A stretch of DNA of 64,000 nt, taken from Acanthopleura granulata (lineage: Eukaryota > Mollusca > Polyplacophora > Chitonida > Chitonidae). The stretch spans positions 1,022,853 through 1,086,852 of the forward strand of contig JABBOT010000036.1 in NCBI GenBank assembly GCA_016165875.1, in the 5' to 3' direction. The notes below the pieces were generated by a model. It made no database searches, was not told where the DNA came from, and saw nothing but the letters and a program-made list of their open reading frames with translations. A program made the translations under genes and the position numbers. Below, piece after piece: positions 22,575-50,080 of the stretch; position 1 is the stretch's first letter, and every line of letters begins with the position of its first letter.

Positions 22575-23152
22575 CTACATATTATGGTAAATTCGACCTT
22601 GATCTTTACAGTCACCTTTGTCCTCGTCTACTGCAGCCGATGTTACTGGGAATCCACGGCCGGGTGGACGCTCGGACACTTGACCACCTGCCAAACCTTG
22701 TGCCCGGTCGTCCAACATCTTCAACACTTGAGAGGCAATCTCCGTCGCCGATGCGCGGATGAGATCAGCAGTTAGAATAGACGAAGGAAGAGATGACTGC
22801 ATAGCGACGTCGACTGACGATGCCAGAGAACGAGGCGGATAGGTCAAGTCCACGTGTCCCGGGTTTTCATTCGCTGATAAACAGGTGCGATCAGGCGTTC
22901 TGTTGGATGTAGCTAGGGGCGAGGATACAGTGCTACCATGACCACTGACCGGAGGTGCCGGAGAACGCCGTGGTCTTGTCATCTCGACACGGCTCGGCTT
23001 GTCCGTCGCTGGAGCACACATGTAGGTACTGGTTCCGCGTAAAGCACCCGGGGGCTGAAGAGCGTTATCACTCGAGGTTGTCAGGGAACGTGAAACGTCA
23101 GGCTGACTGTCTTCCTTCGGTACGCTTGATTTCGTGCCCGGGGATTCGGCCA
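22575..23152 (-). CDS. Ig receptor exon 13: terminal exon with internal duplication and C-terminal YHNM
   Basis: The likely acceptor is acggtag|TG GCC, keeping phase 1; the frame is then open for 191 residues to TAG at 22575. It is rich in Ser, Pro and Thr. Two related segments of about 40 residues can be aligned: TYMCAPATDKPSRVEMTRPRRS and RTCLSANENPGHVDLTYPPRS are their cores. The protein ends DQGRIYHNM, where YHN fits the Grb2 SH2 rule pY-x-N. The acceptor has a modest pyrimidine tract and could be elsewhere. Confidence 0.68.
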
Positions 23153-26100
23153 CTACCGTATGGACAGTCTTCTTACAGGGCAGAGCTGATGGTGACAGGA
23201 AACGGAGAAATAGTCGTATTATGGGAGAAGTTGCTGTAAGATGTTTGCTTTCACTGGCACAAGATCCATGTGTTCCAAACGCATAGTATTTAATGCATAG
23301 TATTTAATGATGGCCAATGCAAACAGATGTAGAGACAGTTCCGCACGTGCAGGCTGCGGAAGTTTTTCGCGCATTCTCAGTAATACCTTCATACCAAAAG
23401 CCACATAAACTGACAGTTTGCACTTGGAGGTCATGCGCACAAGGTTAGTGCAATTTCATGACCAGTGATAGTATACTAGTCGGAGGGAGACTCGAACCCA
23501 CGACTTTAGGGCGTCTGGACCCTTAATTTCACCGACTGGGCTATCAACTGAACGATTTTGTTGGAGACCACATAATGCAGTGTATAAACCATTTCCACGA
23601 CACATAAAACCTTCATTGCTTTAAAAAATATATCAGGGAATTCCTCAGTATATATATTGCGTTTTATTAAATTTAAAATTCAGTTGACTTCCGATCCACT
23701 TAGTAATCAATCGTGTGACCTCAGCTCACGACGTCTATCTGATGGATTCGAACGTTAAATATACCAAAACTCTCAGTTAATAACCCGAGGTTTAATGAAG
23801 TGCAAAACGGCCTAACTTACGTGGGTCTTCAGCTGACAAGCCGCCGATGTCTTCATACTCTGCAAAACAATGTTTTTTTGTTGTTGTTTTTTTCAAAATT
23901 TATTGTTTTTCAAAATTACTGAAACTTGTTGAAAAATGTGTGGATTTCTCCATCCTGTAAATTGAATACACCAATGATTATTGACAAACAGTTATAAAAC
24001 AGCATTTTGCTTTGGAAGTGAACATTACTGCAGACATAATGGTAACATTAAGATCACCTATATGCGTACCCAGAATGACATCAGGCTTTATTGTATTATA
24101 ATAACACAACAGGTGTATGGTCATTTATTTGAACGACTGCTGACCAGCCAAACCAATCGGTTAGTCACGTCGTAATATATAATATATCTCGAAAATTTAT
24201 ATGCATGTGCCGTGCACAAATCGTCTGTCACACTGGTAGACTATTTTTGAGATATTCAGAGCATCAATTAATTTTGAAGTCAGAAATTTAGCACCTTGCA
24301 AACTCTTAAACAGTTATACGATACAACATCCATAAGCCTTACCGTGCTCCTTCACACTTGCACGTGGCACCCATTCCGCCGCCTCATTTTCAAACATGAC
24401 CGTTTTAGGCACTGTGTTATCTAGAGTTGTGTCCTGCAGAAGGGTGGTTTTAACCAGGGTCTGCTCAGAAACAGCCAGGTCTGGTGAGTCAGTCTTCAGC
24501 GATGCTTTCTTGTGCACGACATTTCCTGAAATGACCTTTTCTGGTGTGTCATCTTTGTATTCAACCCTTTTCTCCGTGCCCTTTTCTGGCGAGACCTTCT
24601 TTAGGCAAGTCTTCACTGGGATGTTTTTCCCAGGTGTGTGCATTTTGGGAACAACAATTCCTGGCATGACGTTTCCTTTCTTGGCCTCTCTTGGCACGAC
24701 CCTCTGTGACACTACATTCCCAATCGTCGAAGAAGCCTCTCTGTCCTTGGAGCAAATTTCTGTGACATTGTATTATGGCATTTATTCCCAGCTGTATTGA
24801 AAACTTACGGCACAACATCAGTAAAATCATGCAGTATCCCCTGTGTAGATATATATGTGTTAATTATCAATACACGCCAGGATACTAATGATAAAGAATC
24901 AGCTGTATTGTCAGTATTTCCAGTGTTGAATAGTTAACGGTGCAAAATGATCTTTTGGCTAAGAGAGATAGGTTGGACCTAAAAGCCGATCACCGTAGTC
25001 GTCACTACGCAGCTCCTTGCATGGATATTTAGGTCATGTCTAGCGTTGGCAAGATGTTTTCGGTCCGATATTTTCATATCGTCCTTTTCTGACAGATGGT
25101 ATCGCTTAAGTAAACGAAATTGACCCTTTCATCTGAAGCCATTTATATGGAATTTAAAACACCATACTTGTTTCTCACATTTTATCACGGAACACGCAGT
25201 GTCCGACAATAGCATCAGGCATATGACATCTGATTTAGAGCTACAGCTTAAAACATATCTTCATTAGTCCTGTCCACACAATAACTCACGAGACTTCACT
25301 TTAGGTACAGAGTACAGCGGTTATTCTTAAATGTCGGGGCTCGAAAAGCAGATGACTCGCATCGTGATCATGGAGGGACCAGATTATTCATTAGTTGTAA
25401 AATATGTAGCATTACGATTGCAAGCAATTGACATATTTATCAGCTACACACATGAAAACATCAACATATAGCACAAAAATACATATACCTTATGAATTTC
25501 ACTCTGTTCTTTCCGTTAATTAATAAAGATACTGGCTAGAGGTTTAGCAACACCAGCCTTACCACGCTCTTTTACTCTGGCGCCGCATATCTCAACTCTG
25601 GTAGTTTTTAATACGATATTCTCTGAATCTGCCTTTTTGGGTTTCGGCTTTTTCGGCATGGCGGGTTTTGGTACTGTTTTCCCTGGTGTGGCCTTTTTAA
25701 TCCCGTGCATGTCTGGAATGGTCGCTCTTTCCCTGTCGCCTCCGGGCATAAGGGCAGTCCGTCCATCTTTGGAGGCAGTCCCTGTAATATTGGACGACCA
25801 CACTTATTCTCATGCTTTTCTAACAAACGCAAAACACGGGAAACACGGGGTCAGTGAAATCACGAGCTTGTTACAAAGCTGCATTTGGAAACAAGGCTGT
25901 ACTTCTGCTAGGCTATTCTCACCTTCCCACGCAAAGCAATTGGCAATTGTGCTCAACAGACATCTGCTCCCACGTACAAATAGGGCATGATTAGCCACGT
26001 ACGCACTTGTAGCTGGAAACATTAATGTCAGACAGACTGTACATTTCTGATAACTTCATCTTTATTGTAAATCAGTCATGCCGGTGAATATGAAAATTAT

Positions 26101-29100
26101 CGTTGGCTCAAATACCCAATTGAGTTAATTTTCTAATACATGTAAGTATGTACCACTTACTTGCGCCTTCGGGTAGGACGTCGTCGGGCTCCTCATACAC
26201 TATAAAACAGCACAATGATACATTCTGCAGTGTCCATGACATATAGTGAGGATTTCCCAGTATTAACATTAACATTAATAGTTGCCGCCCACATTCGTCT
26301 TCTCTCAGCATCTCGTATTATTCTATTCCCACAGGTACAAGTCTCTCCTAGGCGTTACTCGGAATAAACTATACCAAAAATCTATGCGTGTTGAAATAAT
26401 TGGAGTACATTGACATAATGCATTTTCATACACACATTTCCGAAGACAGGCAAAAGTTTTATTGTGGATGGCGGAAACACGCATTCCTCAAACATAAGGG
26501 ACAAATTACCATGCCAAGAGAATCTAGCGGATAATATGTGGAGCTATAAGTATCAGGTGATAACAGAGCAGATCATTTGATATGGTCGTATACAGTGAGT
26601 ATAAAGGAACGCAGTGTATAAGGCTTTTCTTTTTCTCACTTGCACCCAACATTTCGTGATGCATGCAGTAATTTGCCACGTGCACGTATCATTTTTTCAC
26701 CATCCCCACGCCAACAGTATGATTTGCGCGTGCATGCGATCCAGGGCATATGACATTTTGATTTGGTTGGTGAGAGGACGATATCGTCATCCATAGAAAA
26801 CCCTTAGGAGACATTGTTGCGCAAAATTAGGATTTGTAAAGAAATTATGATTGCGATGTCTTAACGAAGTTCTGATGTTCGGTCATCAATTAAATCAGTC
26901 TTCTTGAAATATAAAATATGCATTGCGCATGTAGCGAGTGCCAGCCCGGAGAATTCCCGCCGTTATTCGAATTCGACGAAAGAACGGCTGATCATTTTGC
27001 CTCATTAATATTCAAAAGAAAGAAAATTTGCGGGCGATCGGAATCAGTGGATATTGGCTACATGAATTCGGATAATTTCGAATTTTAATACACATAGATA
27101 CATGTTGAATATAGCCACTTAAACAATATTGAGTAAAGGTTCCCAATAATCTTTTCATTAAACTACATCAGAAACGTATGTCCGTTCGACGTTTAACGCC
27201 GCCACAACAACAACAACATTTGCACCCACCTACCAAGCAGTAGCTTTGCGACAACTGGGCAGCAATTAGAACTCTAGACTTGCTTATCAACCTGCACAGC
27301 TCACTGTTACGCCTCTTTTTGGCCTATCCTGTTACGAGAGATTCGTAAGTACTTTTTTACAGGTGTCGTCAGCCACGTTTGTTTACATACGAAGTTTACC
27401 GACTGTTGTGCGCGAGCTCCATTTCCACTGAATTGTCAACCCTCATATAAATATTTTGGCGGAATTTTGAGTTATCAGGTTTTTTTTGTTATTTTTAGAC
27501 ATTCACTTAGCGTACAATGCTGGTGGTGGGATTAAAGTCAAGCTTGCAGCTTTTACTTGAAAAATTGATTGAAAATTTTCGAATACTTATATTATTCTGT
27601 AATAAGGCAAAAATACCTACTATTTGGACGACCATGTCACTTGCATGATAACATGCAACAACCATGTTACACTTATGGTTACTAAAAGCCCTCCACGTCA
27701 ACTGCAGTTACACATCTTACCATGTTCCTCTGCATCGGCGCAAGCAATCCCACTTCCAGGGATCTCTGCCCTATCGGAGCAGGTGACCTCTGGAATGTTG
27801 ATCCCTGGTATGGTACCCTCTGGCATGGCGGTCTTTGACATGTCGGTGATTGATATGATATCCTCTGCCATGCTGGTCTCTGGGATGGTAACTTCTTCCA
27901 TGTCGCTCTCTGTCATGAGTCTTCCCGACGCGGCGGCACCTGGCATAAAGGTTACTGGTGAGAATTGTTTTGTTACGGTTATTTGGGGAAAGTATCTTCA
28001 TCATGGGAGCTGGTTACTGTAAATAACAGTTTGTCATGTAGATTTTTCTTTATTTCGTCGAGATGGGTGGATCGGTTATGTTAATTATATAATGATACCA
28101 TTATTTGTATTTAGGTTCAGAACTTTCAATGACATTATTTAACTTTTGAGACATTTTTTTCTCTTGACCGAAAAGAGATGTGTTCTTGAATTGAGATCTC
28201 GCCAAAGTGGCGGGATTTGTCTAAATTCCTAAACTAAAAGTTATTGTTGTCACAAAAAATATTTCACATCGTCAAAATTTGTATAAAATCAAATCGCATT
28301 ATTATCGCTAGCCAAAATGTTCGGCTTGCAACTGCTTCCTTGCTCGTGAATGGTACCTTCTCTCACCACTGTTGTCGTGAGTGCGTCGAGCTTACATCGT
28401 GTTAAACTTCAACCACAAGGTCATTTCTCTGTGAAAGTGTTTTAAAGAAAACATGGTCGCCCAAAATTTGGATTTTAAGCGAATTGTGATGGCTGGATCT
28501 TAACGAAGAAAAATACCTAATACTCATGTCATTCTGTAATAACATTAAAATATCTAATATTTGGGCTACCACGTTCATTCAGATGTTTTCGGGGAACATT
28601 TTGATGTCGACAGACAGAATCTTTTTTCACATGTTTGACAGTGTCTGCTTATTACGACTATAGCTTAAGTATTTGTGTTTTTCAATTTATCCTTATTTTA
28701 ATTTTTTATCAATTAAACAGGTGGATACAGCACAGGTATATTTATACACCACAACCGATAAAACTTCATTTCCGATTAAATAAAAGACAAAATGAATGCA
28801 CATGAGTTTTATGACAGCAGTCCAGAATTAACGTATAATTAGTCCACCTCTTACCATCTGTGATTTCTGGTATGGTCCTTAATTCAACAGACACTGCTTC
28901 ACCCGTACGTATGCCTGTCATGAGTAAAAAATACAGATGTCATTATACTTTGCTAAGAGCGTCCTAGAAATTTTTCACCAAAGTGGTTTAAATAAAAAAT
29001 CCATCGCAATTAGTCCTACTGGTATTGTCTACTGTTCATTTAAATGATAATGCTGAATTTATAAATTTGTCCTGTTCAGTTAGCTCCACAAGTTCTACAC

Positions 29101-32100
29101 AGTTCCTTATGACGCGAACAGTGAGTTCTCGAACTTCGTCCATCGTGTTAAGCTGAAGCACATAGCCAATTCTCTGCGAAACTGTTTTAAAGGAAACATG
29201 GTATCCCAAAATTTTGATTTTTAAATCAATCCTCATTGTGACATCTTAGCGAAGTTTTGAAGCTCGTTCATTAACTAAATCAATCACGTTGAAATAAAAA
29301 ATGTTCACTGTGTATGCCACTGGTACGAGCCCGGTTCTGCTATTATTCGAATTCAACACAAAGAGGGCGGGCTATGTTCGACGCTGTATCACAGCCACAA
29401 CAACATTTGCACCCACCTATCAAATGCTGTAGTTGTGCAACAACTGACCACCAACTGCAACACTAGACTTGCTTCTCAACCTGCTGAACTATCCTCGACG
29501 CCTCATTTTGGGCGATGCTGTTACGAACGAGTCGTAAGTCCTTTTCTTAGGCGTGTCAGTTGCACGTTTGTGTACATATGAAGTTTACTGAGGGCTGTGC
29601 GCATGCTCCAGTTCCACTAAACTGACAGCCCCTCGTTTGAATATTTCAATATTCTGGTAGACCTATTAGTTTCCATTTTGTTTGTTTGTTGTTTTAGGCA
29701 TTTACTTAAGGTACAATGTTAGGAATGGGATGAAAGAAAAGCTTCTAAGTTTTCCTCCTTCAGAAAAATACCTAATACTCATGTCATTCTCTAATAACGC
29801 TAAAATATCTAATATTAGGGAGAACATGACCCTTTAAAAGTGTTGGGGGAACATTTTGATGTCGACAGACATAATCTTTTTTTTAGCGTGTTCGACACTG
29901 GTAATGTCTGCTTATCATGATTGTAACTTAAGCATTTGTTTTCCTCAATTTAGCCTTATTTTATTTATTTATTTTTTATCAATTAAAGCGGTGGAGTCTT
30001 ACAGCACAAATATATTTATACATCATAACCGATAAAACTCCATTTCCAATTTACAGTAAAGAGGAAATGAATGAAATGATTTATTTACTTACTTATTTGA
30101 TTAATGTTTTACGCCGTACTCAAGAATATTTCACTTGTACGACGGAAGCCAGCTTTATGGTGGGAGAAAACCCGGCAGAGCCCGGCGGAAACCCAAGACC
30201 ATCCGCATGTTGCTGGCAGACCTTCCCACGTACGGCCGGAGAGGAAGCCAACATTGACTGGACCGGAACTCACAGCGGCCGCATTGGTGCGAGGCTTTCT
30301 GGGTCATTGCACTGCGATAGGGCGCTAACCGACTGAGCCACGAAAATGAAAATGCGTTTTGTGACAGTACTCCAGAGTTAAGGTGCAATTAGCCGACCTC
30401 TTACCATCTGTGTTTTCTGGTGTGGTCCTTAATTCAAAAGACACCGCTTCACCCGTACCTATTCCTGTCAATAATAAAAATAGATGTCGTTACGCTAAGA
30501 GCGTCCTAGAGATTTTAACCAAAGTGGTTTTAATAAGAAATCTTTCGCAGCTAGTCATACTTGTCTTGCCTACTGTTCATTTAAATTATAATGCTGAATA
30601 TATCAATTTGTTCTGTTCAGTTAGCGGCTTATGATGTACACAGTCCCTTATGAAGCCACGCAAACAGGAAAAAGATATTAATCGCATATTTTGTGAAGAA
30701 TCGCCAGGTACACTCATACACAAGTATCGCCAGGTATAAAAAAAGCTCAAGAATCGCCAGGTACAATATTGCCATGACCAGATTTTTACCAGTAACATAG
30801 CACACGGTAAACAACTCCTCGTCATTTTCTAATGGTGGAAAAGACATCGTCTCTTTAGTTAGTTCGCTTAGTTAATATTATAGCATAGTTTAGGTATGCC
30901 GGGCTTTCACAGGGTTAGGTGGCCCTTTCTTACCTCGAAGGTTTACCTTTGACCGTATGTAAAATGCTGTGGAAATCAGTATAACCACAAGAAGAAGCAC
31001 ACCTAGAGCAGCCCACAGTAACAACTCACGGAAGGAAACGCCATTTTCTGCATTAAAACAGGTGACTTTTAAGTCAAGTACATGAACATGTCTATACGGT
31101 ATTTAATTAAAATGTCTTGTTAATTTTGACTTAACTGCGACGGATTGAGACCTAGCAATGTATGAGAACAGGAAAGCATGTATTTATAAGTAGATGTAAT
31201 CACAGTAAATCTATATAATCACCACAAAAAAAGCTAGTCATTGCTTATTGCCTTGGTGCTATTTTGAGCATTTATAACAAGTATTTTGCAATTACCTGCA
31301 AGTTTTATGGCAAAGCAACATCACCTTGGTGGATTGAATTGCATTTCACTATGTCTCAATGAACACATGTCCGTCAAGATATTTTACTTTCTCTCAGGTT
31401 TTTTTGTTTTGATGTGTTTTACCAATAAATACCAAAGGACGGAAAGTAAATTTAAGGAAAATTAAGACCAGTATTACCCAATTATTCTACCATGGATAAT
31501 CTCTTCACTCTTCAATGGTGAAGTATATGACACATTTGGTAACATAAAAGAAAACCACCTATCGCTGGTGTATGGCGCTCTTAAGGGACAGGGCATGGCT
31601 TTATGGTTTTGTACAGGTAACGAGATCATGATGTACCGATATTGGTAAAATGGTTACGACTGACGTCACGACTGGAATATAACGTAACCGCAACGGCCAT
31701 GCTTACAGGCAGCTTAAAAGCAATCCTATCTGCGATCAGGTTTGATGACGATCGGTTAAAAATACCCAAGGTTACATGTGCGTTGGAATAAATTTCAGCC
31801 TGGGACAAGCCAAGATGGATGCAATATTTATATCGTTTTACGTACACAGCTGAAATGGAATGCCACCAGCTCTCTATTTATGCCATGTATCATTGCGATA
31901 ACTTGAAGGCAGCCGGTCACGGCGTGAACAAATTGTTGTGCGGACAACGATTAAAGAAGCAAAATAGAATAAAAGAAGTAGCCATAGTTTGTTTTGCACA
32001 TCTTAGGAAATCAATCCCAGCCCTGCTTCCGTCTGTCATACGATTTTTCAGGTTTAAAGATACGTTCAAGCATCAATGGACTTCAATGTCACCTGACTGC

Positions 32101-35100
32101 GGCGTTGTAGCCTTGACGTCACAGCCTTGTGCTTGATCTTGGATGACCTATTAAACCGTAACTCACACAAGGCAAAGATGAAGGGAATTTGCACGGTATA
32201 TGTTTGGCCTGACACGCTGAGTATCATTACATATGATATGTCTATGCAATGATATAAAGAAAATGCTTATACTACAACAAATACCGGCTTAAGCAATAAA
32301 TTAATTAAGCAAATTAATTGAAGTAAAATGTTTATTGTATTTACATGAAGTAATGTAGGTATATGAGTAATATCTAACAATGATTACAGTGCACTTGTTT
32401 AGGTAACGGCTTGATTTTCTTTAAAAGAAAAGAACACATTTATACAACCTATACCTAAAAAGAAAGAAAAAAAGCCTCAATTTTCTGGAGGTAGTGCTTG
32501 TTATTTGAGTATTTAATCGTTAAACATTCAAGACAGAAGCCCTTTTAAGCCGCCATTTTAACAGATTCCTTACGTCACTGTGCTTAGCTTTGCAAAGTAG
32601 CCCTTCTGCCTTTGAAGGTATAAAAAAAATAATGTAGGTGACGTAATAGGGGGCTACAGTGGGGGCCCCAGCTCTAGTTTTGATTATAGTGAATGTAACT
32701 TCGGCTTACAAGGCTACCAGGTTGAATCGCAGAGAAGTGAGGCTGAGAACAGTAGTTCGACCAACAATACATCAAGCTCAAGTGAGTGCGAACCGGGATT
32801 TCTGGCTTTGACATGGGCAATGTGAAAGGACAGGTTGCGCTCCCTGCATTCAGGACATCGCAATACAGACACATTTTGGCAGCTTTCAGCCACGCATACA
32901 GGCATGATGTGGCACTCTAGTACATCTCAAACTCTTCATTTTTAGAGTTGGCCTTAACAGAACTTAAAATTCACGATCATCACGATGTACGAACATATTT
33001 AGCTGAGACTGGAAATGCACGTTAATTAAATGGTAGGAGTAAAACCTTAAGGACAGTGACGTCACAATGAATATTCAATTGTACAAGCCTAAAACATGGC
33101 GGGACTTTCTATATCCCCCGAATAGGTGGATTTTGTAAAAAAAATGAACATGTGTAAAACAGATTGTCTCTTTTACGAAACCTTTAAAAAATGTAAAAAA
33201 AAATTGTATTCCGTACAGTTTGTATAGCTCTTTCATTTAAGGTGTAGGTTGTATAAATGTGTTCTTTTCTTTCAAACCCATATTAATAGCACATTTTTGG
33301 AAAGAATAATAATAATTCCGAGTCATGATTTTGTTAGACACGTTTATAGTCGGCTGTAAAGAGTCATGGGGTTTTACAAAATTTCCGATAGAAATTGGGC
33401 CATTTCTTGGTGAAATAATCAGTTTTCTAAAGTAATGAACCTTACCTTTAATCTTGCCGAGGGTCAGGTTGATGTGTGCCGTGTCTTGTCCTTCAGAGTT
33501 GACAGCGACACAGGTGTACGTCCCTGTGCTGAACTGACTCAGACTGGCAATTCGAAAATCTCTTTTAGCAGCAAAATTGTCGCCAAACTGGGTTGAACTG
33601 TTACTGGCGTTGTTGTTGTCATTCACTTCTGTATTGATATCTGCTCTGTTGTTGACGTCTTTTCCAAAGGTGATGTTGCCATCAAAAATCCAAGTAATTA
33701 TGGGGCTTGGGAAGCCTTCAGCCAAACATGTTAGGGTGACTTCATCTCCGAGAGAATACTCAGCTGGGGTGACGCGGATCTGAACGGTCGGCTTACCTAC
33801 AGCATTGATAATGATATTGTGATGGGTATGACGCCAGAATTCTTTACACTACTGAATTTGGTCAGACGATAATCCTATTAGAGAGAATGACTGACAGTAA
33901 CACTCTGAATAAATGATTTGGAGAAGAGCCTGGCTGGCTCTGGGATTACAGACAGCAATAAACTTGGCGAAGTAATGGTTACATTCAGTAATGTACATGA
34001 CCGAATATTTAACATTAGGATGAATTCTTAAAAAACGCAATGAACGCAAAGTAGATAACATATTGGGTTTTCTCACGTGATAAGGAAATGGAAATAGTGG
34101 TATATATTAGGCTTGTTCTGGACCACTTTTTCTAAGAGGTAGCTGGGAACGTTCTGTAAAGAAATAAAAGCCTAATTCACCACCTCCCTCTCATCCCGTT
34201 GAGGGACAATGAGTATCGCTTAGAAATTGACAAGAATCGTCCGAACAGAAACACCTCTTCGAAGCGAGCTGATAGGTGGGAGAGACCAAGCAGTTATCCA
34301 ACCGCCAAATAAGCCAACCTATACCGAGAAGGAATTTCCTGCCCAACACCAATGTCACAAACAACCTCGTGATCAACGTCTTCGGTTAGGACACAGAAGC
34401 GATCGTCCACGGAGTCAGGAGACAGTTTGTGAATATCCCTCCGATTAACTTGTAACTGATAGAGAAGGCGGTTAAGTTTCACTACACCTGGTTGAAAGAT
34501 CTCTCTTTCCACAGAATCAGATTAACAGGGCAAAGTACTTTTGCGAGCGCTGTCTCCAAGGTGGCCTCAAAGGGACCTCCTGAAAAGCCATAAGCGAGAA
34601 TGCCAAGAGATAGGGGAGATGAACAGACCAAACCACCGGTCATATACAGAAGAAGCAATGCAGCAGAGCATTTCATCAAAGCTCTCCTGAAGGAGGGGCG
34701 GAAGATCACGAGAGTGCTGGCCAACCACAAGACCATGGACATGACGCAAGGAGACTGAGGACATAGAACACAGCCACGGATGTCACGTATGTAAAAAGCC
34801 ACCACTTGGTGACAGTGATCGGTATAACTGCTACATCACTGGGAAATACCGCGGCGCTGCCCACAATGCCTGTAACTTGAGGCATCGCCTGAACCCTCAA
34901 ATCCAAACCACACCTGTAGTCTTCCATAACCTGGGAGGTTACGACTGCATCTACTGATTTACGGCATCTCGAGGGTAAAAGGTAAGGTCTCGTGTTTTCC
35001 CAATAACACCCAGAAGTACATCTCCTCTCTAGGACAGCTCAGGCTCAGCGACAGCGCTCCCTTTTTGTTAGCCTCTCTTGATAAGCTGGTGACAGGCAAT

Positions 35101-41100: not shown

Positions 41101-44100
41101 AGTGTTACGAACAGAAAAATGGAGAACAAGTTGATGCATGTCTAATGGCACGAAAGCCGATATCTGAAAATCCCACAAACTCCTTCTAAGTGAAAAAGAA
41201 TCAATGTGACTGTTCTCAAATGAACCTGAGTAAATGACTGCCGTGAAGTGGACATGGCTGCGAGCTTAACAACTTCGTCGCTCATATTTAAAGACAAAGG
41301 CAGAGAAAATTCCGGATGATTTGTTCGTTAACATGTTTACAACATTGGTGCATCTCTCCAGAATGTAGGCTCTATGTTTACTGACACGAAACTGATAACG
41401 CACAAGCCTCCAGAACACGCGGCTGATTGCGGGTTATGACGTAGACACAGACACCTAAAAATGAAGGTCAGACACAAACTCGGTTACCGTGAAAACAAAA
41501 TAAAAAAACATATAATACAATATCCTACCGACGGGGTTCGTAACACTTGCGCTGACGTGGTTGACTTCTAGAAGCAAGGCCAGAATGAAAACATTTACAC
41601 CGTCCCTTTGAACTATGGCCTTTAATACCGGAAGAAGATTGATCGGGGTTGGAGAGGAGAAAAAGAGCGCCCAATACACTTTGGGGAGCTGGAAGACCCA
41701 AGGTTCTCTTGGCCCTTCCATACCGACTAGTTTCGTCTGTGAAAAGGATGGCAAGTGGGTTGTAGTATTATCAGGTAGTGGCCCCGGTGGTCGACCTGGT
41801 GGTAACGCATCGTACTGTCCAGTCAACCACGAATGGCAATGTAAAAAAGTGCTAAGCAGTAGCTCAGAGGTCATTTGCTATTCGCCTGGCTGTCATCAAA
41901 TATTCTTGGTTGGCCGCCTGGTCAATGAGGTCTATACTCGGAAATCGGAGGCGGAATAAAAGACATATGTTTCTATAAATACGACGTATGGTGTCATACG
42001 AAAGCCACTTCCTGTATGAGGTGTAATTATTACAGACCTGATCATATTAGAGGGGGCCTCTAAGAAACACCGTTCAGCTAACAAATGGATTGCCTACTAA
42101 CTCAACGGAGTATGCCGAAAATGGAAGGGGGAGTCTTTATTAAGGGTACGGTGGAGAATTGCAGGATTCAAATAACTCTTGAAGGCATTTGGGTGACTGG
42201 CATACCGGAGAATGTGCGGCTGGAAAGGATCATTTTTGATAGAGATGTACGGTTGAAACGACTGAGTATGTCACTTACCTCTGAAAGGCTAGGATCCAAT
42301 TTAGACATTGCATTGAATAATCCATTCCCATAATATACATCATACAAAGCGTGATATATTGACGTGATGGGGCGAATGTATCTTTACCTAACGACGCATC
42401 TGTGGACGAACAATCTACAATGCTGAACCACCGGTCTTACAGACTATGGGAAATAAGCGCCTTGAAAAAGCCATTGTAGGATGAGAGAGATAAGCAAGCC
42501 AACCAGTACAAAATATACTGGCGTGGGTATGAATATAATTGACGGCGTTGAAACAGACTTAGTGACTGCCAGATTTGGTCTAGAAGCCTCGGGTATACAT
42601 GTATGTTTCCTGACCACAATCATAGCAGCTGCCGTTGTTGTAGGTACGGAGATCCTAGCCATCTTGAGTAGAATGGTCGGTGAGCCTGGCAAACGTATCT
42701 TGTGCCGCCTTTCAAAGCGAAAAAACACGATGAAATCCATGTTCTTGCGGATTTAAAACTTAACACCATTTCCGACCTTATATCGAAAGCTCTGTGGGAA
42801 AATACAGATCAGGAGGAAGGTGGAAGCGTCAGTATGAGTGAGGAAGAAAAAAAAACTAACCCACCAGGGATTTCTTGTCACCTTGCTAGCGAAACTCGTA
42901 AAAAAACTGTAATTCAGTTGAATTGCACGCTAACAGTGAACCATTTGTAGACATTTACATCTGCAACTTGTCACTAGGCTAGAATATAAAGTATAGGCAC
43001 GCATGTTAACTCAAGTGTTCGGCGTTGCTAAGGTAACTGTCTACCTTGGATACCGCGTTTATGTAACGAACGCCTGTATACTCTGCCGTCTGGGCATATG
43101 TTTTGGGATTCCCAGTCATTAAGTTAAATGTTTATCTGGATAATAATGTACTTGAATGTAAGGGATCAGTGGCTTAATAACATAACTAAACTAGGTCAGC
43201 TCTATTCCTTACTAGTTATAGCCGTGGAGGAGGGTTGCCAAGGCTAGGTTTTAGGTTGTACATGTATACCAACTGTAGACACGGGAGGGGGGATGAGGAG
43301 GGTGTCTCCCACCTATCAGCTAGCTTGGAAGTAGTGTTTCTGGTCGGACGAGGTTATAAAAAACCTTGTCAATTTCTACGCGATACTAATCAACCACCCC
43401 ACCACCCACCCTCCACCGGGATAAGAAGGAAGTGATAAATTAGGTTTATATTTTTAGATTGAACGCCCCCAGCTACCTGCTGGAAAAAGTGGTCCAGAAC
43501 CAGCCCTAGCATATATGTATATACTAGTGAAATTTACTGATGAATTTAGATATATGCTAAGGACTGGAACGATGGACGTGGAGAAAGACTGCTTTACTGC
43601 ATGACTAATACACAAACAGTTCGCTGATGTTGGCGGCGATACGATCATTATAGGGCTTTTTCCGATTAAAGAAACTTACATGTGATGTATAGCTTTATCT
43701 TGTCCGTAAGAGTTCTCTCCCCCTGCTGTGCTCTGCAGACCAGCTCCTGGTTGTTCATATCCTTGGTCAGAGTCAAGGATATCTGGCTTTTGACACCAGA
43801 AACAGTTGGTTCCGGCAGACCTGACGTCCATGGAGCCTGCCAGGTAATGTTCGGGGAGGGGTTTCCGCCTTCAGTCTCACAGGTAAATGTCACCTCCGTG
43901 TTTTCCGGGACCGGGAATATAGGTCCAGATAAGGTCACACTCCTAACGCGAACTGCAGTGGTGAAACAAATATTTTTTTGAAAAAGATTATCCGGGTGTC
44001 GTCTTAAAGGGGGTAATTCTGCCTACTGGTAGCGTCCAAATTCCAAAGGTTATTCTTTACATCATTACCTTGAAGCTAAATGATTTGTCTGTTTCTCCTT

Positions 44101-47100
44101 TTTCAGTTAAAAGCTGGGCTCAGATTTCTACTTCTTTTTATTTTAATATTTTATTATTTCAACCAAACGAGTATATATCTGTAGATATTGGGAAAGTGTA
44201 ATAATTGCTTATCATCCAAACTGAACACCAAGACTTGCATAATTCTTCATTAACATGACACAAGAAGTCGACAACTTAAACTGATATCGAATAGCAGTAA
44301 GAATTGACTACTTCAATAGGAACAGTCCTTAATTTTTTTATAGAGTATTGCTTTATTTAACTGCCCCATTGGGCTTTAAAACGTAGTAAACCCACAGTAA
44401 GGAATTATTGTATTTAAAACTGAGCGCTGTTAGCAATCTGCTGTTAATGGATGACTGAATAGTAATTAGGCCAGCAGAAGCATAATTTTATTACAGAGCA
44501 TTTCAACTTGGCACGTGAAGTAAGAGATCAGGGTGCTACCCGAATGGACCTTTGATTCTCACCCTGACCAGAAGGGGGTGATGATAGGATTACCTAGCCA
44601 GTAACTATGTATACCGCCAGCGGCCACATTTTTTCACAGCAGAATATTCCTACGTGATAAATAAATAAAGTAGGCAGACGGCTCTGGCGACTTACTTAGC
44701 ACACAGTGCTCTCTAACCGTTAGTTTCCAGAGCAATGCTGCTTGAATGTAGGTATTTGTTAGTTATTTCCTCTTTTTGTATTTTATCAACGGCGCAGGAA
44801 GCATTGCCTCCCCACACCCACACCCCCTCGAAGGGCTAACCGCTAATTTCAAATTTTCGCTAGTACACCACTTCCAAGAGAGATTTACCATCAACACAAA
44901 ATTGCGACATTCGGCTCCCTGAGGGACTGTTTTAAGCTTTCTTTTTTCTTCAAGCTTTGATTTTGATCTTTGAGGAATATGATTGTATCTTGTGACACGA
45001 TATTCATAGTAAATTAGTTTACATATTTGAAGAAACCCACATAAGTATGACATCCTGTCAGTGATGGAATCAGCGAGATTTACCATCAACACAAAATTGC
45101 AAGACAATGGTAAGGCAATGCATTGTCTTAGCAATGGGAAACTGCGTGCCATATCGCGTAGCAATCTACACTCGATCTGAGCGTAACATCAAACCAGACC
45201 AGAAAAGTAAACCGACTGACAGGAAACAATATGAACGTAACATTTACATCCAAGATGGTTTTGTCGTTTGTTCAAGTGTGACAGCCCGCGAGACCTCTCT
45301 GGGGAGACCAGAATCGGAATCCCCCCCCCCCCAAAAAGTAAGGTTATTATAATAGGTGTATAAATTGAGCTGGCCTGTGTGGTCCTGTCGTCCTTTAAGA
45401 CAACTCAACAGTGAAACTGTCGTGAGTGACAAGACCATCAAAAACTGTATCTGAAAATACTTGTAGTGACCTTTTAATATTTTCTTCAACGAAAATGAAC
45501 ACAGTCAAATGTTTTGGCTGTATAGTGGATTTTATGGATTATACTGAACAGGCTGTTGAACAGTGACGTCACACATTCGTTTCAGCTGCTAAGCAGCCTC
45601 TGGCTGTTATACATTTACGTTCTACATGTATTTCTACACCTGCATGTGTATTCAATGTGCAAATATAACAACCAAATTCTGTTTAGTAGCCAAAATTTAT
45701 GACGTCACTGTTCTTCAGCCTTTTCAATATGGCCAATAAATCCCACGATACCATCAAAGCATTTGAGTGCACTTAATTTCCTAGAAAAAAATTTAAAAAA
45801 AATAGTGAAGGTATTTTCAGATACACTCCTACTTGCCCTTTTCACTCACCACAACTCCCGCCTGGTTCGTTCCATGCCAGTTATTTCCATGCCTGCTACT
45901 GATCACTTTGCACTTTACAAAGTGTTGCAAATAAAAAAATACACACACTCTCTCAGTCAATATGCCAACTACATGTTTCTGTCACATCTGACACATCTGA
46001 CCGGAAATGACGTAATGTTTTCGGCGGCATTTTGTGGGCATGTGCGTGTTTAAAATTAGTTGCATGCCTCCAACCTAAATACCCACAAAGCTTGTTTTGT
46101 GTGCATTTACTGATTTTTAAATGGCGAAGAACGTGCCCAATTCAAGAGTTATTGACCTTAATCGCTATAGTCTTTGGCTTTGTAATGAACCGCATTTCTC
46201 CAACTCGAACACTACTACAGGCTGCCTGTGCACAGCAATGGGGTGAAGAGTAACATATTGTGAAGGCTGTAACCAAGGCAACAAGCCGGCATATGCCGAT
46301 GAAATAAATTAGCTGGGTAATTAAGTGTGTCTGATTAAGGAAATGTAAAAGTTAGCTTTTCTGGCCTTACGCGTTAAAACATTGTATCGCATCAGCCTTT
46401 GTGTGTATGTACAATGAATTACTCAATATAGTACGGGATAACAGTTCTTTATGTAAACTGTCGAAATTAATATTTGAAAATCCATAATTCACCTGAAGGG
46501 CAAAAACAGACAGGCCAAAACTGAGGGATGTGCAATTCTGTAATCAGACTGCTCAAATCTGATTTGTGTCAGTTTGACGAGTTCCCATGTACATGTGTCA
46601 TCATCGTATCTTATTCGTCATTTCACTTTACTGTTTGCGCCTTTGTACAGTGAAAGGAGAAAAAATAATTAAGATATTTTATCCAGCAGGCACATCGCCA
46701 CAACTCAGTACTGGTACGTACAACATTTCACTCTAAATCTTATTTCACTCTAGGAACTGATATTAAGTGTGCTTAATGATAAGATATGGGAAGGTATTTT
46801 TTAAAGTAATATGGTAGGTGTTTCATCGAACAAGCCTGGAAGTCTGTCGAAATTACTAGCTGGCTTTGATGTTATTACATTCTGACATTTATATCAAGGG
46901 TCACCAAGACTTGTTATCTAAATTGCCATGCAGACATGCTCAAAGGGTTCCTCCTTACCATGTACTAAGAGCTCCACAGATACGTGAATTCCAGATGAAG
47001 TACATTGGAAAGTGCCACTGTCTCTTGCGTATGATGCTGATGTGATATTAATTGAACTTTCATCCACGACTTGCACGTCTGCCGAGGTCCAGGGTGGAGA

Positions 47101-47792
47101 TATTTCAGTCCACAACGGTTGAGTATGTAAGACAGGTTCGCAGATCGTATTGTTTATCTTGCACCATGAGGTGACAGCTTTATCAATAGGCCTGTCTGGA
47201 CCACATTGTAGAACAACCGCTTCACCCTCCCACACGACATATACACACTTAACACTGCAGATCAATAACTTGAATGCTGTAAAACAATATTAAAGGTTTG
47301 GGTCAAAAGTTTGTGTGGGCCCCTCATCTACCGGTTAAAACTTTACTTGCAGACAATTTCCACACCTATTGTAAGATAATCGTGATTTTGAATTATTCAG
47401 AGGCAAATAAGACTTCTATAATGAGATCTCGGGATGTGGTTTACCTTGTCTGTTTTTAGTGTTGTTGAAGTACCACATGTACGGAGATCATTTCAACAGT
47501 TGACGATAACGACAGTACACAAACTTTCTTTCTAACGCATGTCTAAACCGTAACACAAATTCTCATAAAGATAACAGAATGTAACATTATCATACAGCAT
47601 ACACTCCACAAGTAACATGATTGTGTCGTTCACTACTGGCTTTCTGATTTAAATCAACAGTCTGTATGTTTTATCTCATTTCGCCACACTGTTTGATCTT
47701 GAGAAACGTTATAATAATCCAGTACCCAATGAAATCTTAAGAAGCGGCTACTTACCAACAGCATAAAGAATATGCTTGCTTGAGACCTCCAT
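22575..47792 (-). CDS. Immunoglobulin-superfamily transmembrane receptor, 13 coding exons (predicted)
   Basis: Hand-assembled gene: 47792-47756, 47276-46959, 43952-43680, 33796-33446, 31047-30934, 30464-30405, 28914-28855, 27939-27721, 26199-26161, 25781-25563, 24738-24343, 23859-23821, 23152-22575. The exons total 2703 nt (900 aa plus stop). All 12 introns are GT-AG, all are phase 1, and all donors start GTAAG. Domains in order are signal peptide (about 1-23), Ig (about 24-118), Ig (119-209), Ig (210-326), transmembrane helix (about 335-357) and a cytoplasmic tail (358-900). The tail carries pentad repeats and tyrosine motifs at Y479, Y697 and Y897. Known of the family: phase-1 symmetric Ig exons are typical of animal cell-surface receptors. 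I infer a signalling or adhesion receptor at the plasma membrane; the ligand is unknown. I do not recognise an orthologue. The least certain junctions are the exon 11 and exon 13 acceptors. Extra or alternative exons may be missed, and no polyadenylation signal was identified. Confidence 0.82.
23466..23552 (-). pseudogene. tRNA-like pseudogene or SINE head
   Basis: On the minus strand an A-box-like ATAGCCCAGTCGGT and a B-box GGGTTCGAGTCTCCC are correctly spaced, with an acceptor-like AGTTG...CCGACT pairing. The anticodon arm closes only with a 6- or 8-nt loop and the T stem has a mismatch, so it is unlikely to be a functional tRNA. It lies in receptor intron 12. Confidence 0.55.
23821..23859 (-). 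CDS. Ig receptor exon 12: 39-nt YEDI exon
   Basis: Acceptor ttttgcag, donor CCAC|gtaagt, phase 1. It encodes (E)YEDIGGLSAEDP. YEDI closely matches the pYEEI consensus for Src-family SH2 domains. It follows a KEH-ending repeat exon, as exon 9 does, so the 'repeat exon plus YE exon' module appears twice. Confidence 0.7.
24343..24738 (-). CDS. Ig receptor exon 11: long pentad-repeat exon (396 nt)
   Basis: Donor CACG|gtaagg, phase 1. The chosen acceptor (acagag|AG GCT) is the one that keeps phase 1, but its pyrimidine tract is weak, so the 5' edge is uncertain by a few residues. About 20 pentads can be laid out in register (for example VMPGI-VVPKM-HTPGK-NIPVK), decaying toward the end. It contains one Tyr in VEYKDD and ends ASVKEH. 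It is the longest member of the repeat-exon family and is probably expanded by slippage of the 15-bp unit. Confidence 0.7.
25563..25781 (-). CDS. Ig receptor exon 10: cytoplasmic pentad-repeat exon, basic (219 nt)
   Basis: Acceptor attacag, donor CGTG|gtaagg, phase 1. It encodes a lysine- and proline-rich segment with prolines at five-residue spacing (KKATP-GKTVP-KPAMP-KKPKP). The start TASKDGR aligns with exon 11 ASSTIGN and exon 8 AAASGR; the end RVKER aligns with exon 11 SVKEH. It is strongly basic where exon 8 is acidic. The role is unknown; PxxP-like spacing could bind SH3 domains (inference). Confidence 0.75.
26161..26199 (-). CDS. Ig receptor exon 9: 39-nt YEEP exon
   Basis: Acceptor ttttatag, donor GCAA|gtaagt, phase 1. 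It encodes (V)YEEPDDVLPEGA. The acidic YEEP motif resembles Src-family SH2 ligands (pYEE followed by a hydrophobic residue), but with P at +3. It is paralogous in length, phase and position to exon 12. The call rests on splice signals and that resemblance. Confidence 0.68.
27721..27939 (-). CDS. Ig receptor exon 8: cytoplasmic pentad-repeat exon (219 nt)
   Basis: Acceptor atgccag, donor G|gtaaga, phase 1 at both ends. It is acidic, with a five-residue periodicity best seen in TAMPE-GTIPG-INIPE (proline every fifth residue), matching an imperfect 15-bp repeat in the DNA. It ends DAEEH before the splice, like exons 10 and 11 (KER, KEH). The length equals exon 10. No known domain is recognised; it is probably disordered. 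Confidence 0.75.
28855..28914 (-). CDS. Ig receptor exon 7: 60-nt juxtamembrane exon, copy 2
   Basis: Acceptor tgacag, donor G|gtaaga, phase 1. It encodes GIRTGEAVSVELRTIPEITD. Four of the six differences from exon 6 change an amino acid (G/R, F/V, T/I, N/I). It lies in a tandem duplication together with the flanking intron sequence. The two exons could be used together or as alternatives, because skipping either keeps the frame. Confidence 0.76.
30080..30342 (-). mobile_element. tRNA-derived SINE, minus orientation, in receptor intron 6
   Basis: Full-length copy of the main SINE family. On the minus strand it has a tRNA-like head with A box TGGCTCAGTCGG and a degraded B box, a body with 'ggccgtacgtgggaaggtctg', and a TTTA/AAATAAAT-type tail. 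The homologous site in the paralogous intron copy (about 28790-28830) lacks it, so that copy is an empty site. Flanks AAATGAATGA and AAAATGAAAATG look like an imperfect target duplication. Confidence 0.85.
30405..30464 (-). CDS. Ig receptor exon 6: 60-nt juxtamembrane exon, copy 1
   Basis: Acceptor tgacag, donor G|gtaaga, phase 1 at both ends. It encodes GIGTGEAVSFELRTTPENTD. Exon 7 is a paralogue, differing at 6 of 60 bases by hand count. It sits just inside the membrane after the TM exon. I know of no domain of this size that matches. Confidence 0.78.
30934..31047 (-). CDS. Ig receptor exon 5: transmembrane helix
   Basis: The 114-nt exon has acceptor aatgcag and donor CGAG|gtaaga and is phase 1 at both ends. 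It gives about 23 hydrophobic residues (LLLWAALGVLLLVVILISTAF) followed by YIRSKVNLR, a basic stop-transfer flank, so the N-terminus is outside (type I). An alternative donor lies at TCAAAG|gtaaac, but it would break the uniform phase. Confidence 0.85.
33446..33796 (-). CDS. Ig receptor exon 4: third Ig domain, membrane-proximal
   Basis: The 351-nt exon has acceptor gctgtag and donor G|gtaagg and is phase 1 at both ends. It encodes EVTLTC (C233), IITW (W245) and STGTYTC (C305), followed by NSEGQDTAHINLTL: a canonical I-set domain with a long N- and D-rich C-D region (residues about 255-285) holding an NSS sequon. The exon 3/4 junction creates a Cys codon (C210). Intron 3, upstream of this exon, is 9.9 kb and full of transposon remains. 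Confidence 0.88.
34350..36090 (+). pseudogene. Polinton/Maverick-type family B DNA polymerase, decayed and truncated
   Basis: Collinear fragments in shifting plus-strand frames. In order: an INVFG segment (about 34370); a CERC zinc motif (about 34535) followed by a His/Cys partner region; a CHVC...ITGKYRGAAHNAC endonuclease-VII-like zinc motif (34781-34890); an HNLGGYD exonuclease-type motif (about 34927); a QVDLEYPE segment (about 35490), the protein-primed polymerase region; an MNNSVFGK segment (about 35823); and LMYDFYYNYM (about 36055). Several stops and frameshifts interrupt it, and the expected downstream catalytic DTDS block is absent. Family assignment rests on my knowledge of Polinton polymerases. 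It sits in receptor intron 3, opposite in sense to the host gene. Confidence 0.82.
37440..38088 (-). pseudogene. Polinton-associated structural-type protein fragment, split by an LTR
   Basis: The minus strand reads a segment from 38088 (GIYTTPSTVNAGTRVEITT...) to about 37945. It is then interrupted by LTR-like sequence and resumes at about 37735 (LRTHQLWDDSKKLFAV, VEEFLTNKYALWLDL), with a frameshift near 37550 before RRIENAGEGVTIQT. I associate this protein with Polinton-type elements but not with a named function. Stops and the insertion show that it is not functional. Confidence 0.6.
37737..37927 (-). mobile_element. LTR-like sequence, probably a solo LTR nested in the Polinton remnant
   Basis: Matches 40543-40733 over about 190 bp. 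On the minus strand it begins TGTAATTATC and ends CCTTTACA (TG...CA ends). It splits a Polinton-type reading frame. No clean target-site duplication is visible. Confidence 0.6.
38085..38335 (+). pseudogene. Polinton-associated small hydrophobic protein fragment
   Basis: The plus strand reads SDRGGIKEWVKKRLKAF, then after a one-base shift LPGIIGSVVSWVFTL and WLAENTWALIIAAG, a strongly hydrophobic stretch. I associate it with small membrane-active proteins of Polinton-type elements. It is divergent from the minus-strand fragment that starts at 38088, so the gap between them may be a former bidirectional promoter. Confidence 0.6.
38900..40391 (-). pseudogene. Ty3/gypsy-like gag remnant with an inverted middle segment
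   Basis: The minus strand starts ATGCCTAAAGAATTT at 40391 (MPKEFNVDSFLDGED). It continues through a charged Glu/Arg-rich region (about 40150-39965), then a capsid-like part at about 39600-39450 (SFESLKEAVLLEGM, VPNEVKVHLRDQ). A zinc-knuckle-like CSCHYSKSPGHLLSTC follows near 39290, with Ser where one Cys is expected. The capsid part between about 39840 and 39610 reads on the plus strand instead. Several stops are present. No protease or reverse transcriptase was found nearby. Confidence 0.7.
39610..39840 (+). pseudogene. Inverted capsid-domain segment of the gypsy gag remnant
   Basis: The plus strand reads AGAAEAYAALSIDQS, DYDTVKAVVFLACEIVPEAY and, after a shift, SGETYVDFARVKKL. This is the segment of gypsy gag expected between the N-terminal and C-terminal parts that flank it on the minus strand. 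It occupies the right place but is flipped. Confidence 0.65.
40543..40733 (-). mobile_element. LTR-like sequence next to the gypsy gag remnant (5' side)
   Basis: Homologous to 37737-37927. On the minus strand it ends CCTTTACA and is followed after two bases by TTGGGAGTTTGTCC, a possible primer-binding region, and then by gag about 140 bp further on. Its 5' boundary is obscured by a CA/TA microsatellite at 40750-40786. Confidence 0.6.
40750..40786. repeat. CA/TA microsatellite
   Basis: (CA)n passing into cgcgcatatatatatatata. It marks the edge of the LTR-like sequence. Confidence 0.9.
41615..42950 (+). other. Cluster of unassigned plus-strand ORFs in receptor intron 3
   Basis: Four consecutive plus-strand open frames lie at 41615-41959, 42085-42333, 42481-42756 and 42702-42950. 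The first has Cys-rich and Gly-rich stretches (FVCEKDGKWVVVLSG, YCPVNHEWQCKK). The third has a predicted transmembrane stretch (VCFLTTIIAAAVVVG). The last is acidic with FKAKKHDEIHVLADLK. The same-strand run is unusual for this intron and they are flanked by transposon remains. I recognise no family. They could be accessory genes of a mobile element or an unspliced host gene nested in the intron. Confidence 0.3.
43680..43952 (-). CDS. Ig receptor exon 3: second Ig domain
   Basis: The 273-nt exon has acceptor cactgcag and donor T|gtaagt and is phase 1 at both ends. Key residues are VTFTC (C143), NITW (W156) and ELVC (C191). The PxPxNxTEVTFTCxTEGGNPSP run is typical of I-set or C2-like Ig domains. 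The usual D-x-G-x-Y-x-C before the second Cys is replaced by NNQELVC, a pattern seen in nephrin/CD80-type C2 domains. It is separated from exon 2 by a 3.0-kb intron. Confidence 0.85.
46959..47276 (-). CDS. Ig receptor exon 2: first Ig domain (V-like)
   Basis: The 318-nt exon has acceptor tttacag and donor G|gtaagg and is phase 1 at both ends. It completes the signal peptide, then gives an Ig fold with VVLQC (C37), a core Trp in TSWC (W50), and DSGTFQC (C104), the last being the usual D-x-G-x-[YF]-x-C signature. Two extra cysteines (C51, C58) could form a second disulfide. NNT and NIT are potential N-glycosylation sites. Confidence 0.85.
47756..47792 (-). CDS. Ig receptor exon 1: start codon and first half of signal peptide
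   Basis: The ATG at 47792 begins MEVSSKHILYAV and the exon ends phase 1 (GTT G) before gtaagt. An in-frame TAA lies five codons upstream, so this is the first possible Met in the open frame. Joined to exon 2 it gives a hydrophobic stretch (ILYAVAFKLLICSV) typical of a signal peptide, with likely cleavage near residues 20-23. No clear TATA box is visible upstream. Confidence 0.8.
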
Positions 47793-49345: not shown

Positions 49346-49832
49346 ACCCCCAGAACCATTTTTATCAAAACTACTCCTTATTTCCATAATACAAATAAAG
49401 CAAGTTCCCCATCCTCCCACTGGATTTCATTTTAGTTATTACATGTAATATAAGAGTTGATGCCTGCAATTTTGGATGTTGAGAGATGGTCACAGTGGGC
49501 TCTTATATGGTAATGGGCAAGTATTTGACCAGCTTACCCGTATATAGTTGTATGAACTACTTCAATAAGCTTAGTCGTTCATGTAAATCTGTTTTTTCAA
49601 CCATAGAAATGGCATGTTCTGCCACAAATAGGTACTACAACTGTCACGGACAGAATTCAGGTTGGCCCTACGTCTTGATCAAAGGCACAATGTACTGCTG
49701 TACTAATATGAGGGTTAAAGGTCGCTACTTTGACAGTATCCTATGCCATTAAGATAAAACTGAGTGAACAGCCTGTGTAAACGGACTCTCATTATTTCTC
49801 GCATTATTTTAGCACGGCCAGCTGGTTAATTT

Positions 49833-50080
49833 CTTTATTTATTTATTTGATTGGTGTTTTACGCCGTACTCAAGAATATTTCTTTTATACGATGACGGCC
49901 AGCATTATGGTGGGAGGAACTCGGGCGGAGCCTGGGGCAAACCCACGACCATCTGCAGGTTGTTGCCAGACCTTCTCACGTACGGCCGGAAAGGAAACTT
50001 GCATGAGTTGGACTTGATTTCACATCGACCATATTGGCGGGACGCTTCTGGGTCATTGCGCTGCGCTAGTGTGATGGTGT
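49833..50080 (-). mobile_element. tRNA-derived SINE, minus orientation, diverged
   Basis: Same family as the 63.5-kb copy: tail ATTTATTTATTTGATTGG, then 'gttttacgccgtactcaag', body and a degraded tRNA-like head ending near 50080. No clear target duplication seen. Confidence 0.85.

Follow-up and report, generated by a model that had tools for sequence, protein, structure and literature searches.

What looks like a small family of Ig-superfamily receptor genes with tails of swappable, repeat-filled exons in Acanthopleura granulata

Alteration of receptor tails by modular exons is already known from PECAM-1, Penaeus Dscam, and Megf11/Draper. PECAM-1 (CD31) is a single-pass Ig-superfamily protein whose cytoplasmic domain comes from several alternatively spliced exons (PMC5664058), and its variants without exon 14 do not bind SHP-2 (PMC5664058; PMC5358002). 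In the Dscam of Penaeus monodon, and in that of Daphnia, seven cytoplasmic tail exons can be inserted or skipped to give many tail isoforms, and the Penaeus tail exons carry SH2-binding and ITAM motifs (PMC6851185). The intracellular exons of MEGF11 and Draper have been described as allowing a potential modular use of ITAM or ITIM motifs (PMC7335077). The oyster IgSF receptor CgIgIT2 has a tail with a tyrosine motif and signals through ERK (reviewed in PMC11999971); the motif is called an ITAM in that review and a title cited there names the protein an inhibitory receptor.

The gene analysed here lies in a stretch of 64,000 nucleotides of the Acanthopleura granulata genome (C36:1022853-1086852), referred to as the window. 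It looks like a real, so far unmatched animal cell-surface receptor, one of a small family with tails made from swappable repeat-filled exons. The first-pass annotation of this DNA knew of no named receptor with this layout, which is overstated because PECAM-1, Penaeus Dscam, and Megf11/Draper are described, in the passages that deal with their tails, as having modular, alternatively spliced ones. Tail exons that can be skipped in frame, the mark of such receptors, are present in the window gene as seen from the phases of exons E6-E12. As far as those passages go, there are also differences from each described system. PECAM-1 has six Ig domains and dual ITIMs whereas the window gene has three Ig domains and no ITIM, and pentapeptide repeats, which are in the tail of the window gene, are not mentioned in the passages on PECAM-1. 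In Penaeus Dscam there are ten Ig domains and six of the FNIII type (PMC6851185), whereas the window gene has no FNIII match. The ectodomain of MEGF11 and Draper is made of EGF repeats while that of the window gene is made of Ig domains with no EGF match, and CgIgIT2 has five Ig domains and a classic tyrosine motif, unlike the window gene, in which there is no ITAM or ITIM. By the features tested, namely, FNIII and ITIM, the window gene is neither Dscam nor PECAM-1. The window gene would act in the manner of these receptors; what is new here is that the long cassettes are pentapeptide repeats and that the gene belongs to a family.

The gene and its copies in the genome

Thirteen minus-strand exons, running from position 47792 to position 22575 of the window, join into one reading frame (Table 1) that codes for a single-pass Ig-superfamily receptor with a signal-peptide-like exon, three Ig exons, a transmembrane (TM) segment, and a 566-residue tail. 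When the gene was rebuilt from the exon ends, the first model was 2820 nt and 939 residues long with all 12 introns in phase 1 and all 12 donors GTAAG, which confirmed the exon count, the single frame, the phase, and the donors of the first-pass annotation. With the acceptor of E13 corrected as explained below, the protein has 923 residues, 566 of them C-terminal to the TM segment. It had also been claimed that any tail exon can be skipped without losing the frame; this holds for E6-E12, which are the only symmetric tail cassettes (phase 1-1), and does not hold for E13, which is terminal.

The genome (606 Mb in 87 contigs) was searched for copies, and the window gene is one of four places found in it with this exon set, one of the four having a damaged E6/7 and E10. 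The damaged copy, R3 (C36 near 874-886 kb), has E1-E5 and E8-E13 in the same order, an E6/7 remnant without a donor, and a frame-shifted E10; it is a paralog because it is on the window's own contig. The copy on C6 near 22.81-22.82 Mb has E2-E13 and the copy on C60 near 0.965-0.984 Mb has E1-E13, both in the same order and with a single E6/7, and these two might be two haplotypes of one locus. Both 39-nt exons are carried by R3, C6, and C60. The donor lies one base after the last codon (phase 1) in all 28 exon copies scored in these three loci and it is GTAAG in 21 of them, with GTAAT, GTACG, GTGAG, and GTATG also used in C6 and C60. There was no stop in the exon copies entered in Table 2, and E13 of C6 is open to its own stop. 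That the tail exons make up a separate gene, a possibility which the first-pass annotation had raised against itself, is ruled out by these three further loci, R3, C6, and C60 being colinear with Ig, TM, and tail exons in the same order.

Table 1. Exons of the window gene and copies of the duplicated block around E6 and E7, in positions of the window
Feature	Positions	Strand	Observations
E1	47756..47792	-	37 nt; start codon and signal-peptide-like segment (by eye); R3 and C60 share the ATG, the length of 37 nt, and the GTAAG donor
E2	46959..47276	-	Ig domain 1 (Pfam match weak); R3, C6, and C60 have a homologous exon
E3	43680..43952	-	Ig domain 2 (C2-set_2), E 4.5e-12, above cut-off
E4	33446..33796	-	Ig domain 3 (I-set / Ig_3), E 9e-14, above cut-off
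E5	30934..31047	-	transmembrane exon; homologous exon in R3, C6, and C60
E6	30405..30464	-	60-nt cassette, copy A; C6 and C60 each have one 60-nt counterpart (GTGAG donor), R3 a donorless remnant
E7	28855..28914	-	60-nt cassette, copy B; 54/60 nt identical to E6
E8	27721..27954	-	cassette of pentapeptide repeats, acidic (net charge -12); uncertain whether the 5' end is 27954 or 27939
E9	26161..26199	-	39-nt tyrosine cassette, VYEEPDDVLPEGA; 39 nt, CAG acceptor, GTAAG donor, and YDEPDD in R3, C6, and C60
E10	25563..25781	-	cassette of pentapeptide repeats, basic (net charge +11); C6 and C60 have it open, R3 with a shifted frame
E11	24343..24759	-	longest pentapeptide-repeat cassette; 5' end uncertain; best conservation in last 60 codons
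E12	23821..23859	-	39-nt tyrosine cassette, EYEDIGGLSAEDP; YEDL in R3, YEEL in C6 and C60
E13	22575..23185	-	terminal exon of 202 codons, in which translation stops; acceptor moved here from 23233
E6 copy of the duplicated intron-exon block	29390..30656	-	has a SINE-like insertion that the E7 copy lacks
E7 copy of the duplicated intron-exon block	28490..29115	-	no SINE-like insertion
Third copy (distal part of the block)	27180..27640	-	more diverged, 72% over 449 nt; adjoins E8

No counterpart of E1 was located in C6. The acceptor of E13 was placed at 23185 and not at 23233 because YAG at 23185 is conserved in five of five aligned copies and because R3 and C6 have an in-frame stop between the two points. 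At 23233, CAG is found in the window only; of the other copies, three have AAG there and one lacks an AG. The window and R3 share their acceptors of E8 and E11, but these are not conserved in C6 and C60, and therefore E8 and E11 must begin elsewhere in C6 and C60; the 5' ends of these two exons in the window model are uncertain.

A sixth, more distant relative, R4 (C36 233 kb), has Ig2, Ig3, and a TM-like exon, followed by phase-1 exon candidates of 225 and 219 nt that are rich in pentapeptides, for example, KTVPGITKHG. Its 39-nt exon, NDEPSDIPSESP, has no tyrosine and has asparagine in its place, and its terminal frame has PCKKK and VLKLL, like E13, with CAG at the place of 23185 directly before the LPCKKK sequence. 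An Ig1-like match (35%) lies about 5 kb before the Ig2 of R4, near C36:228.3 kb. Taken exon by exon, Ig2 has at least 11 close relatives besides that of the window (68-90% identity) on C36, C6, and C60, including places near 312 and 446 kb of C36 and near 21.06, 21.09, 21.13, and 21.14 Mb of C6; E11 has at least three other copies, and E8 has at least three other copies among the matches listed, where that of C60 was missed. Two partial copies were also seen on C36. In R1 (5-18 kb), only E3, E4, E9, E10, E13, and 39 nt of E11 were found, with no E5-E8 and hence no TM exon, and in R2 (194-214 kb), E1-E8 were found (E2 and E3 partial) and nothing of E9-E13. R1 and R2 may be decayed copies, or they may be one rearranged gene.

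Intron 3 (34110-43505) is nearly filled by an element that is bounded by inverted repeats about 9 kb apart, which are complementary over 92 nt at 79%, 26 nt at 92%, and 51 nt at 88%. One frame near 34.8 kb may resemble Maverick-type DNA polymerases. Pfam gave no match for ten further open frames, eight from intron 3 and two from the left of the window, and there was no match to Rfam at gathering thresholds.

The ectodomain and its matches

In Pfam, Ig2 matched C2-set_2 with 46.3 bits (cut-off 21) and Ig3 matched Ig_3 with 52.2 bits (cut-off 30). Ig1 matched Ig_3 with 16.9 bits (E 0.0092), which is below the cut-off of 30, and the single-sequence structure model of Ig1 had a pLDDT of 46 and was too poor to use. 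The TM segment is one hydrophobic stretch in E5 (residues 335-357, by eye). Thus, of the outside of three Ig domains and a TM segment claimed earlier, Ig2, Ig3, and the TM segment stood, while the match of Ig1 is weak. Neither FNIII nor EGF domains were matched by Pfam in the whole protein. Among solved structures, those closest in sequence belong to ordinary Ig receptors, for example, Roundabout 2 and FcRL5.

Searches outside this genome gave two proteins at E ≤0.001 for the whole protein (7997 candidates with the most shared words scored), one at E ≤0.001 for the ectodomain (2117 candidates scored), and none at E ≤1 for the TM segment and tail (7997 candidates scored). Hemicentin-1-like and other Ig proteins (P0001, P0002, and P0003) are alike in their Ig domains, with 26-27% identity over 22-36% of the query, and this is generic Ig resemblance only. 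The receptor looks undescribed, as had been proposed, in that there are only generic Ig matches and no close relative outside this genome among the candidates scored; in the open-licence literature, no published description of this receptor family was found. The ectodomain would bind a cell-surface or microbial ligand.

Tail cassettes

The tail consists of phase-1 modules of two kinds, long pentapeptide-repeat exons and 39-nt acidic-tyrosine exons, together with the 60-nt E6/E7 pair, and then the terminal exon. Most of each long exon (E8, E10, and E11) is a degenerate repeat of five residues that reads roughly T-[VIM]-P-[KEG]-x. When residue similarity was compared across lags, E8 and E11 had z values of 3.3 and 4.1 at lag 5; in E10, z is 3.5 at lag 10 and only 1.1 at lag 5, and nothing was seen at lag 5 in E13, E2, E3, and E4. 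At the DNA level, 15-nt periodicity is found at 27681-28013, 25541-25740, and 24319-24738, which are E8, E10, and E11 to about 60 nt (150-nt smoothing), and elsewhere in the window three further peaks lie near 6.1, 11.5, and 22.1 kb. The three exons differ in charge, which is acidic in E8, strongly basic in E10, and mildly basic in E11. The third codon position of the pentads is the most variable by entropy in E10 and E11 and not in E8, and many repeat units contain CCAG in the phase-1 acceptor position, where they show up as nested exon candidates. When the tail exons were aligned, E8-E10 and E10-E11 were alike (1/1000 shuffles each) and E8-E11 less so (34/1000), while E6 and E7 did not align significantly with E8 (676 and 153 of 1000 shuffles).

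The 39-nt exon E9 is YEEPDDVLPEGA in the window, YDEPDDVLPEGA in R3, YDEPDDILPEGI in C6, and YDEPDDILPEAI in C60, and E12 is YEDIGGLSAEDP in the window, YEDLNDLSAENP in R3, and YEELDDIADEDP in both C6 and C60. The tyrosine sites are YEEP in E9 and YEDI in E12. The kinship of E9 and E12 rests on the match of E9 with its flanks to E12 of C6 and C60 (E 0.001) and not on their direct alignment, which is not significant (739/1000 shuffles reach the score). The 575 residues from E6 on in the first model were scanned for motifs, and none of the motifs found falls in the 16 residues that were later removed. There was no match in them to ITIM ([ISVL]xYxx[LVI]) or ITAM (paired Yxx[LI]), the motifs of receptors like CEACAM, CgIgIT2, and LILR, YEDI being one half site, and neither NPxY nor a C-terminal PDZ motif was found. 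The scan did show acidic YEE and YED, one C-terminal YxN (YHNM), the class-I SH3-type RRSPAPP, and the class-II-type PAMPKK. From consensus motifs, we take YEE/YED, YHN, RRSPAPP, and PAMPKK to be putative Src-family, Grb2, and SH3 docking sites.

E6 and E7 lie in a duplicated block whose copies are 90% identical in the exon vs 80-84% outside it, and the two exons differ by four residue-changing and two silent differences. Since the identity of the exons is little above that of the flanks, E6 and E7 may be functionless. No third exon of this type was found beside the third copy of the block. The E6-type exon of C6 and C60 contains SYELRT, with a tyrosine at the position that is F or V in E6 and E7 of the window. 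The SINE-like repeat has five copies in the window, at 30080-30345 (in the E6 block), 63481-63735, 49830-50069, 52727-52898, and 16994-17214, the other four being 74-83% identical to the first.

The exon set was compared with what chance would give. Six symmetric phase-1 exons of at least 200 nt with a GTAAG donor and a YAG acceptor occur on the minus strand, every one of them within the locus, and the plus strand has none, with the reservation that the pyrimidine threshold of 0.45 was chosen after the exons' own values were known and that at 0.5 the full-length E11 and E12 drop out. The same count in 100 first-order Markov sequences had a mean of 0.26 and a maximum of 2, and the other two phases gave one such minus-strand exon each and no plus-strand exon. 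At 30 nt or more there are 19 phase-1 candidates on the minus strand, of which 14 are in the locus and 11 of these are E2-E12, and eight on the plus strand, compared to a Markov mean of 9.2 and a maximum of 20 per 64-kb strand; three of the 14 candidate donors in the locus are outside the model. The 39-nt and 60-nt exons are within chance in these counts and get no support from them; they were accepted because copies elsewhere in the genome carry them in the same order. The frame of the last exon, with 242 codons, is the longest of the window, the maximum in 100 Markov windows being 214. A strong tandem repeat at 13775-14264, with signals at 12 and 18 nt, has long frames open on both strands and is a likely source of false long frames.

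Alternatively, E8, E10, and E11 might not code at all and be minisatellite-like repeats in which frames stay open because the period is divisible by three, with the receptor ending soon after the TM segment by read-through of intron 5 to a stop at 30890. There is indeed a stop 14 codons after the E5 donor, and over E8, E10, and E11 the opposite strand has open frames of 138, 156, and 154 codons. With a codon model trained on the Ig exons, the control frames scoring as high were 0/140 for E8, 1/140 for E11, and 7/140 for the first form of E13, and they were 37/140 for E10, an ordinary score that would suit minisatellites, and 133/140 for the TM exon. The model is weak, in that E2, an Ig exon, did not outscore E10 when held out of training and that the score of the TM exon is low. 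Against a minisatellite origin are the scores of E8 and E11, which beat 140 and 139 of the 140 control frames, and the homologous exons in C6 and C60 that have the same donors, open frames, and same-exon residue identity of about 33-58%. We give hardly any credence to this explanation.

Selection, exchange, and a proposed working of the receptor

Table 2. dN/dS in five of the six pairs among the four full copies (R3-C6 omitted; E6 and E10 of R3 and E13 of C6 omitted)
Exons	Window-R3	Window-C6	Window-C60	C6-C60	R3-C60
Ig exons	0.33	0.25	0.31	0.35	0.39
E8+E9+E11+E12, pooled	0.65	0.68	0.69	0.51	0.63
E9+E12	0.83	0.29	0.41	0.23	0.24
E8 alone	0.95	0.74	0.86	0.39	1.04
E13	1.02		0.64		0.72
E10				1.47

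Judging from dN/dS (Table 2), the Ig exons are under purifying selection. The tail looks coding yet loosely held because its pooled dN/dS is 0.51-0.69 with a weak excess of silent change (Fisher p 0.011-0.08). These values also bear on whether the window copy is a decaying pseudogene, the working genes being elsewhere (C6 and C60). Decay is seen on this contig in the partial copies R1 and R2, and E10 of R3 is frame-shifted, but the exons of the window are open in 13 of 13 cases with intact splice sites and its ectodomain has a dN/dS of 0.25-0.33 against the three other copies. It is very unlikely that the window copy is a pseudogene.

The exons have diverged unevenly. C6 and C60 are 93-100% identical in E5, E6, E8, E9, and E11-E13, 88-89% in E2 and E10, 82% in E3, and 63% in E4. 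E4 of C6 was seen to be without an asparagine-rich stretch, and the tail exons of C6 and C60 to be nearly identical. It is possible that the divergence in E4 vs the near-identical tails came from exchange of ectodomain exons, or that C6 and C60 are two haplotypes. In its TM exon, R3 shares 96% identity with C60 and 79% with the window, while the other scored exons of R3 are closest to those of the window (E3 tying with C60). The simplest reading that this uneven divergence suggests is exchange of segments between copies.

We lean towards the explanation that this is an Ig receptor with a tail of symmetric cassettes that are skipped or gained to tune signalling while the ectodomain is kept. It would be a receptor for recognition, with a tail that acts as a disordered spacer, carries charge, and bears single tyrosine docking sites, the repeat exons being disordered spacers of differing charge. 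YEEP, YEDI/YEDL/YEEL, the C-terminal YHN, and RRSPAPP would dock SH2 and SH3 proteins of the Src/Grb2 type. Since every cassette is symmetric, loss or gain of one leaves the frame untouched, and skipping or gaining a cassette, by splicing and in evolution, would change the number and spacing of docking sites. The strength of the tail would thereby be tuned with the ectodomain kept, and we infer that exon skipping would give a diversity of tail isoforms. In R3 the damage is limited to symmetric cassettes (donor of E6/7 lost, E10 frame-shifted) and the other exons are open, which fits dispensable cassettes and is equally what decay of a copy looks like. What speaks against this explanation is that there is no ITIM or ITAM, that the 39-nt exon of R4 has asparagine for tyrosine, and that dN/dS is near 1 in some pairs of E8 and E13 and 1.47 in E10.

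It is quite possible, although we think it less probable, that the receptor is real and its tail constitutive, with all exons always in, the phase 1 being inherited from the Ig/TM exon class and by tandem duplication, and the repeat exons being weakly constrained neutral spacer. Phase-1 Ig exons are the common rule, which suits a constitutive tail, as do the dN/dS of the tail (0.51-0.69, with E8 up to 1.04) and the evolution of E6 and E7 close to that of their flanks. On the other hand, R3 has lost E6/7 and its E10 is frame-shifted, yet the rest of its tail is open, and the pyrimidine content ahead of the exons as modelled is 0.47-0.53 for E8 and E10-E12 against 0.60-0.73 for E2-E7 and E9, the lower values being those expected of weak acceptors. 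A further proposal goes beyond the tuned tail that we prefer, and we regard it as unlikely: a clustered, lineage-specific receptor family in which ectodomain and tail exons are separately exchanged modules and in which the CCAG-bearing 15-nt units allow five-residue steps in the tail by splicing and by replication slippage, giving a signalling tail that can be adjusted finely, with recognition of self/non-self or of pathogens as a possible role.

If the cassettes of the preferred explanation are spliced in combination, one gene would give many tails on one ectodomain. The family is itself a natural test, with four places that have homologous cassettes, one in which cassettes are lost or broken, and ectodomain and tail exons that have diverged unequally. 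If the explanation is true, growth of a receptor tail by duplication of symmetric exons and slippage of five-residue repeats would stand beside the vertebrate and arthropod cases.
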